Origin: Rubrobacter calidifluminis
Lineage (GTDB): Bacteria; Actinomycetota; Rubrobacteria; Rubrobacterales; Rubrobacteraceae
Assembly: GCF_028617075.1 (NCBI RefSeq)
Contig: NZ_JAQKGV010000017.1
Coordinates: 1 to 53,511 of the forward strand
Length of the DNA stretch: 53,511 bases
Direction: 5' to 3'
Part shown: piece after piece, positions 18,035-19,082 of the stretch
How the letters are laid out: each line of letters opens with the position of its first letter
Numbering within the stretch: position 1 is the stretch's first letter
Translations under genes and position numbers: made by a program
The notes under the pieces: generated by a model
Seen by the model: the letters and a program-made list of their open reading frames with translations, nothing else
Told to the model about the DNA's origin: nothing
The model's database searches: none

Positions 18035-18325
18035 CTACGCCTCGTAGTCTACCGCGATGAGGTTCGTCGTGAGCCGTCCGAGCTTCTCCAGCACCGCCAG
18101 ATGCTCCGGGTGCTCCCGGTAGCGCGCGAGATCCTCCACGCTCTCGAACCGCGCGAAGAGCCCGTGGGTGAAACCTCCTCCCCGATCGCTGAAGTTCTCC
18201 CCGGCCGTGAGGTCCACCACCCCCGGTACCTTCTCCCTGAGCGCCCGCAGAGAGGCGACAAGATCCGCCAGCTCATCCCCGGAGGCCTCCTCCTTCGCCG
18301 TGAACAAAACCAGATGCTCGATCAC
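18035..18325 (-). CDS. Dabb (stress-responsive alpha/beta barrel) domain protein
   Basis: A 96-residue protein matching the Dabb ferredoxin-like barrel: IEHLVLFTAKEEASGDELAD at the start, then LREKVPGVVDLTAGENFSDR, THGLFARFESVEDLARYREH and PEHLAVLEKLGRL. Such proteins dimerise through the barrel; functions vary from stress response to small-molecule isomerisation or decarboxylation. The GTG at 18325 is the start because GGGAGG lies closely upstream and it gives the family N-terminus. It sits 27 bases upstream of acuC. Confidence 0.85.
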   Translation of the reverse strand: MIEHLVLFTAKEEASGDELADLVASLRALREKVPGVVDLTAGENFSDRGGGFTHGLFARFESVEDLARYREHPEHLAVLEKLGRLTTNLIAVDYEA

Positions 18326-18485
18326 GCCTTCCTCCCTCTTCCGTTCACCCCGCGAAGCATACCTTACCCAAGGATCTCCCACATCCACCCCTGCTTGTTA
18401 CACGAATTGCCGCAGTGTTAAGGAAATTTAAAATGCTTCCCGACCCTGATTTCCCATTTTGCCCCATCACTGGGCGGTTTACGTG

Positions 18486-18547
18486 TTTCGAAGTTCTTGC
18501 GAAGTGGTTGCGATGAGTTTGCGTAAAGATTTCAAAACGGTTACCCT
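18486..18547 (+). promoter_or_regulatory. 11-bp-period direct-repeat operator plus promoter for wall hydrolase
   Basis: Four copies of a hexamer sit exactly 11 bases apart: TTTCGA at 18486, TTGCGA at 18497, TTGCGA at 18508 and TTGCGT at 18519. The last copy is positioned as a -35 with a 17-nt spacer to TACCCT (18542-18547). Hexamers with 5-nt gaps are the binding layout of OmpR/PhoB-type response regulators (PhoP, WalR). The gene downstream is a peptidoglycan hydrolase, a typical target of such regulators. No response-regulator gene is in the window. Confidence 0.5.
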
Positions 18548-18566
18548 CGTGCCCCGTTGAGAGGAG

Positions 18567-18594
18567 GGGGTTCTCTACAGGGTGAGAGATCCCC
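18567..18594 (+). other. Imperfect hairpin in the NlpC/P60 leader
   Basis: GGGG-T-TCTCT pairs with AGAGA-T-CCCC across an 8-base loop (ACAGGGTG), with one T:T mismatch. It lies between the predicted transcription start and the ribosome-binding site at 18614-18620. It might affect translation or mRNA stability. I could not fit it to the c-di-AMP (ydaO) riboswitch that often precedes such genes. Confidence 0.35.
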
Positions 18595-18629: not shown

Positions 18630-19082
18630 TTGGCTGTGAGTGTAAGGCTAAGGCTCGGAATCGTGCTTGCGGCTCTGGCGCTGGCGCTGACGGCTGCGGT
18701 GATGGCGTCGCGTTCGGCGGAGGCGCAGACTGTCTCTGGAGATGCGATCGTCTCCGACGCGCAGAGCTATCTTGGCGTTCCTTACGTTTGGGGCGGTGAG
18801 TCGCGGGCCGGGGTCGACTGCTCCGGGCTGGTTACGGCTGTGTTTTCGGATTTCGGGATCTACCTGCCGCACAGCTCCTATGCACAATTTTCTTACGGGA
18901 CGCCGGTTTCGACCCCTGGACCGGGTGATCTCGTCTTCAGCGATTATGGGTACGGGTTCGCCTCGCACGTCGGGATAGCGGTCGGGAACGGGCAGATGAT
19001 CGACGCGCCCTACCCGGGCACCGTGGTGCGCTACGATCCGATCATCTCCTCTTACGTGAACGGGTACAGGAGCATCGTCTAG
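18630..19082 (+). CDS. Secreted NlpC/P60 peptidoglycan endopeptidase
   Basis: A 150-residue protein. A signal peptide of about 32 residues ends at the likely cleavage site SAEA-QT. A single NlpC/P60 domain follows: the catalytic Cys is C64 in VDCSGLV, the His is H113 in ASHVGIAVG, and the third polar position is D125 in QMIDAP. The domain cleaves stem peptides in the cell wall. The TTG at 18630 is chosen for its GGGAGGA site 10 nt upstream and because it puts the signal peptide at the N-terminus. There is no extra wall-binding domain. It is monocistronic, with a strong terminator after it and an unusual repeat promoter before it. Confidence 0.9.
   Translation: MAVSVRLRLGIVLAALALALTAAVMASRSAEAQTVSGDAIVSDAQSYLGVPYVWGGESRAGVDCSGLVTAVFSDFGIYLPHSSYAQFSYGTPVSTPGPGDLVFSDYGYGFASHVGIAVGNGQMIDAPYPGTVVRYDPIISSYVNGYRSIV

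Follow-up and report, generated by a model that had tools for sequence, protein, structure and literature searches.

Upstream of a secreted NlpC/P60 peptidoglycan hydrolase gene in Rubrobacter calidifluminis, six half-sites of the form GTTNCG follow one another at 11-bp steps from 18485 to 18545 of the window (the whole 53,511-nt stretch analysed, which is contig C17 of a genome of 3.09 Mb in 54 contigs). Judged from sequence, the array is more probably than otherwise a tandem operator for a response regulator of the OmpR/PhoB family, and the MtrA/WalR-like protein L130 is the most likely regulator. The interpretation given by the initial annotation, an OmpR-class operator for cell-wall genes, is partly supported: it applies at the level of the family, and the array is a single site in this genome.

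Phased half-sites at the hydrolase promoter

The gene of this promoter (18630-19082, forward strand) encodes a 150-aa NlpC/P60 hydrolase with a signal peptide (PF00877, E=1.2e-23). Translation probably begins at TTG 18630, not at GTG 18582, as suggested by the Shine-Dalgarno sequence GGGAGG before it, the signal peptide after it and a reading frame common to relatives. The neighbouring divergent gene (18035-18388, reverse strand) encodes a Dabb (stress-responsive A/B barrel) protein (Pfam PF07876).

The four hexamers reported by the initial annotation, TTTCGA (18486-18491), TTGCGA (18497-18502), TTGCGA (18508-18513) and TTGCGT (18519-18524), are exact in the sequence and are separated by 11-bp steps throughout, and the promoter was also placed correctly, with TTGCGT as the -35 element, a 17-nt spacer at 18525-18541 and TACCCT as the -10 element at 18542-18547. 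The same register goes on past these four copies with TTTCAA at 18530 and TTACCC at 18541, so that there are six phased units and the array reaches the -10 element. The repeat is better described as GTTNCG-N5, starting at 18485, 18496, 18507, 18518, 18529 and 18540, and the six 11-nt units are, in order, GTTTCGAAGTT, CTTGCGAAGTG, GTTGCGATGAG, TTTGCGTAAAG, ATTTCAAAACG and GTTACCCTCGT.

Numbered from -5 (18485) to 0 (18540) on the forward strand, the units comprise GTTTCG (unit -5, 18485-18490), identical in two congeners; CTTGCG (unit -4, 18496-18501), which is GTTGCG in the congeners; GTTGCG (unit -3, 18507-18512), likewise recognised in the congeners; TTTGCGT (unit -2, 18518-18524), which holds the -35 hexamer; ATTTCA (unit -1, 18529-18534), which lies inside the spacer and had been missed; and GTTACCCT (unit 0, 18540-18547), an extended -10 that contains TACCCT. 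The first four contain the hexamers reported initially. Operators of the OmpR/PhoB class consist of at least two direct half-sites, each some 6 bp long, with a period of 10-11 bp, and six such units at 11 bp support the 6 plus 5 direct-repeat architecture that had been proposed.

Within the window, exact matches to the three-unit pattern were confined to the array. When the upstream region of 119 nt was put through 1000 dinucleotide shuffles, the observed three- or four-unit score was never reached at periods of 8-14 (P<0.001), period 11 outscored the other periods in this range, and a chance origin of the array is excluded. Since the shuffle score was modelled on the window array itself, independent testing comes from the relatives L100 and L103.

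Conservation of the array before orthologous NlpC/P60 genes is supported in congeners and in two other genera. Two congeners (L006 and L007, 93% protein identity) have the same six units; when the window was compared with a congener, the TTNCG cores of units -5 to -2 showed 0/20 changes, as against 10/42 in the 5' flank and 5/15 in the inter-unit spacers, and the probability of 20 unchanged core positions at the flank rate is 0.004. In the two other genera, 11-bp GTTNCG arrays precede the orthologues L100 (72% identity; GTTACG GTTAAG GTTGCG ATTTCA GTTACC) and L103 (56% identity; GTTACG GTTGCG GTTTCG GTTACT), in register with the -35 and -10 elements, and each reached P<0.001 for three units out of sample; in the slot of unit -1, L100 has ATTTCA and L103 has GTTTCG. 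The related orthologues L101, L104 and L105 keep the promoter with TTGCGT or TTGACG, and the array is absent from them.

Two further elements were observed around the promoter. Upstream, at 18416-18431 on the forward strand, the 10-bp direct repeat TGTTAA-GGAA-ATTTAA is conserved in L006, L007, L100, L101, L103 and most PcsB-like promoters, and is possibly a second regulatory site or an UP element. Boxes of the form TRTTAA-N4-TRTTAA occur far upstream of promoters of both hydrolase types (the window box, L100, L101, L103 and L212-L226), and in PcsB-like promoters the box sits in a long conserved block, GTTAC...TATTAAGATTTATTAAA...GTTTCG-N5-GAAACA...CCCTTTATTTAAGCC.

Downstream, the 5' leader contains a hairpin, GGAGGGGGTTCTCT...AGAGATCCCC (18563-18594, forward strand), and this element is conserved in the leaders of NlpC/P60-type hydrolase genes across the family. 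The conserved sequence GGAGGGGGGAT...ATCCCC includes a G-run that resembles an SD and precedes the true one (also in L212-L226 and L269-L297). The leader model matched 29 places in 24/39 family genomes, and nearly all places read were upstream of NlpC/P60 or PcsB-like genes; at L276 the sequence is too short, and L295 was left undecided by the gene-calling script. A known riboswitch or RNA leader was rejected, with no Rfam family at gathering score near the gene; one sub-threshold DUF805b match fell on the leader of L212. Covariation in the hairpin was no higher than in shuffles, so that the case for an RNA structure is based on sequence conservation and fold potential.

Arrays in this genome and across the Rubrobacteraceae

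The genome was scanned by pattern and by model, with 150/455 candidates scored in one of the scans. No second array of at least three units was found before a wall gene, nothing comparable coming from the one-mismatch three-unit scan, and the murE promoter (L268) and the PcsB-like promoter (L209) of this genome carry no array. Because the array occurs only once here, a regulon is supported for the family, and the suggested wall-stress regulon of this organism is not supported. The observation that was to count against the initial proposal combined a repeat found only here with a lack of conservation before orthologues; the first half is true within this genome and the second is false.

Further candidate arrays in this genome were rejected, C19:8388, C24:3126 and C10:10376 as weak or in unrelated contexts, and C2:63368 (L166) as having no assignable downstream gene, with a divergent endonuclease V-like gene more than 200 nt away. 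The sequence GTTGCGGTACGGTTGCGGTAAG is repeated in three genomes (L208 at G000:C10:10376, G002:C11:68497 and G017:C1:1082486), in L208 downstream of a tRNA-like sequence, and looks like an attachment or repeat element and not a promoter array. In the murE promoters of the genus (L268, L266 and L267), where the array is absent, a perfect inverted repeat GTTACA-TTTC-TGTAAC was observed in the sigA-murE intergenic region.

Across 39 Rubrobacteraceae genomes, the pattern TTNCG-N6-TTNCG-N6-TTNC (11 bp), with a 10-bp period as control, gave 120 matches at 11 bp versus 57 at 10 bp. Matches with TTCC units were about equal (46 versus 41) and represent background, whereas those without TTCC units numbered 74 versus 16, and those with G preceding units two and three 25 versus 0; matches are not independent events, because some overlap in one array and orthologues recur.

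Reading the flanks of the 11-bp arrays free of TTCC units gave 48 loci, none within called genes, while 3/16 of the 10-bp control loci lay inside genes. Within 350 nt of a wall gene were 24/48 of the 11-bp loci and 0/16 of the controls (Fisher P=1.3e-4, with orthologues not independent). Genes were called with a simple codon-usage script, flanks at 11 bp were hand-picked from the match list and later completed, and neighbours were identified by Pfam on representatives, the wall role being otherwise judged by eye.

The adjoining wall genes encode small NlpC/P60 proteins, PcsB-like coiled-coil proteins with or without NlpC/P60, RlpA-type DPBB proteins, MurE (opposite the primary sigma factor) and a class A PBP (divergent from tyrS); the remaining 24/48 arrays lie beside genes without a known wall role. 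An operator before several wall genes was thus found across the family and not within the window genome. Beyond the family, the DNA upstream of 77 more distantly related NlpC/P60 genes showed no 11-bp excess. In L180, L203 and L204 (G020, G022 and G027), an 11-bp CTTACG/GTTACG array has the gene of a different OmpR-type regulator on one side and that of a large membrane protein on the other, and may belong to a separate, possibly autoregulated system.

Candidate regulator and alternative readings

Nine PF00486 (OmpR-family) proteins are encoded in this genome. L130 (G000:C5:168566-169291) is present in 38/39 genomes with 81-100% identity, and the single genome without it is a 60% complete bin. 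Its partner histidine kinase has HAMP, PAS and HisKA domains. Among solved structures, the one closest to L130 is M. tuberculosis MtrA (2gwr). The L130 gene lies about 8 kb from a PcsB-like NlpC/P60 gene in G000 and, by coordinates, some 7-11 kb in other genomes, a linkage observed in many genera.

The cluster runs in the order regulator, kinase, M50-like protease, secreted protein, AI-2E-type permease, CDP-alcohol phosphotransferase-like protein and PcsB-like hydrolase (read in G000, G005, G016 and G024 with names assigned by eye; the G014 stretch was read without the hydrolase). Arrays are present within this cluster, before the hydrolase in G005 and before the secreted protein in G022, G023 and G024. 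No array was found before the gene of the candidate itself, and no two-unit sites above threshold that would indicate autoregulation were found near regulator genes, except a distant one in L128. L130 scores below the equivalog cut-offs for MtrA (NF040689, 258.9 of 300 bits) and YycF/WalR (NF040534, 260.4 of 340 bits), and no response regulator of the genome reaches either.

In the proposed mechanism, one winged-helix domain would occupy each GTTNCG half-site, and the 11-bp period would set successive protomers head-to-tail along one face of the DNA. The array takes in the weak promoter of sigma-70 type (TTGCGT-17-TACCCT) of the hydrolase gene together with the DNA just before it; dimers on units -5 to -3, beside the -35 element, may activate this promoter in the fashion of PhoB and VicR, and shut-off at high occupancy would be possible through the weaker spacer and -10 units. 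Activation is slightly preferred over pure repression, and we infer this direction, as well as binding, the signal and the choice of regulator, from the sites and genes described. Counting against this reading are the free fourth base of the half-site, the L130 scores under both cut-offs, the single array in this genome, the array-less orthologues L101, L104 and L105, the lack of an array at the L130 gene, the many family arrays beside genes of no known wall function, and the three-unit arrays in which two units fall on the -35 and -10 elements.

It is less likely, though the foremost alternative, that the array is bound by another OmpR-family regulator of the genome, such as the MtrA-like L134 next to dnaK (249.6 bits against the MtrA equivalog, cut-off 300), or L128, L129 or L131; all of these share the type of DNA-binding domain, but the PcsB-like linkage and near-universality were shown for L130 only, which the distribution search covered.

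Somewhat less likely again is that the array is mainly a core promoter, of a class with a TTGCG -35 and a GTTACnnT extended -10, the other units being drifted copies of the -35 without a regulator. TTGCG at -35 is common to NlpC/P60 and PcsB-like promoters with or without arrays, the array-less ones having TTGCG-17-TAGAGT or similar, and in several three-unit arrays of the family two units fall on the -35 and -10 elements. Because array-less NlpC/P60 promoters share TTGCG there, the copy at 18519 is at least partly a core-promoter -35. However, a core promoter leaves the spacer unit unexplained, units -3 to -5 keep their cores while the spacers between them diverge, and the murE arrays are located upstream of a likely -10, TACACT.

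It is improbable that phased T-rich steps simply bend the promoter in G+C-rich DNA, making a sequence-specific protein unnecessary: TT dinucleotides do recur each 11 bp on one face, but the collected units almost always have C and G at positions 5 and 6 (partly through selection by the search pattern, though the congeners and L103 have them too), C is depleted from position 4 only when the period is 11 bp, and 10-bp phased arrays, equally able to bend, show no enrichment. A chance or slippage repeat without function, which the single such array in this genome might suggest, can hardly be credited, as it is contradicted by P<0.001, by the conserved cores, and by the arrays that other genera and further wall genes carry.

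Comparison with known wall regulators

Wall hydrolases are controlled by WalRK in Firmicutes and by MtrAB in actinobacteria, and the return of the array before wall genes across the family suggests an undescribed circuit for wall control that resembles those of WalR and MtrA; no literature on such a wall regulon in Rubrobacter relatives was found in the papers searched. The array appears to resemble MtrA and WalR operators in its working, with membership in either regulon not established. Tandem boxes of PhoB/PhoP consist of 11-bp half-sites that abut or replace the -35 element, and the Rubrobacteraceae arrays are alike in having 11-bp tandem half-sites at -35 and unlike in half-site sequence and target genes.

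With WalR/VicR (YycF) the arrays share direct repeats at 11 bp, wall hydrolases as targets, among them pcsB, which is activated by VicR/WalR (PMC9210968), and a kinase partner with HAMP and PAS domains. The WalR site is TGTWAH-N5-TGTWAH (PMC4168254), whose half-site on the opposite strand, DTWACA, is near GTTACG. The spacing agrees with a strict WalR site, but GTTNCG (opposite strand CGNAAC) mismatches TGTWAH, the half-site ends in G and not A with its fourth base free, and the candidate regulator falls under the YycF cut-off; no YycH/YycI-type gene was recognised in the regulator cluster.

With MtrA, the likeness lies in the Streptomyces operators, direct repeats of some 6 bp set 5 bp apart, with which the spacing of the arrays agrees, and in the GTTAC form of the family half-site, which fits the GTnAC of GTnAC(C)-N5-GTnAC (PMC5650626, PMC13189361, PMC3353115), the Streptomyces site being G/T-T-G/A-A-C-C-N5-G-T-G/T-A-C-N (PMC5650626); in C. 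glutamicum, MtrA recognises 8-bp repeats with 3-bp linkers, and its targets include nlpC, mepA, mepB and rpf2 (PMC3353115). MtrA and WalR sites favour A as the fourth half-site base, whereas it is A, G or T in the family arrays (A 25, G 25 and T 19 among 69 collected units; in the window, A in unit 0 only). Also unlike MtrA sites, the arrays of 3-6 units run into the -35 and -10 elements, and the candidate regulator is under the MtrA cut-off; no LpqB-like gene, as in MtrAB-LpqB, was recognised by eye in the clusters read.

The family arrays yield a concrete wall-regulon prediction for Rubrobacter relatives, and an intermediate regulator near a PcsB-like hydrolase, together with a readable operator code, offers a testable case of change in both circuit and DNA code. 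Tentatively, the Rubrobacteraceae might possess an MtrA/WalR-like regulator that reads a half-site code of its own, GTTNCG, in multi-unit arrays through the -35, spacer and -10, and that would co-regulate wall cutting (NlpC/P60, PcsB-like, RlpA) and synthesis (MurE, class A PBP) and form a link between the Firmicute WalRK and actinobacterial MtrAB circuits.
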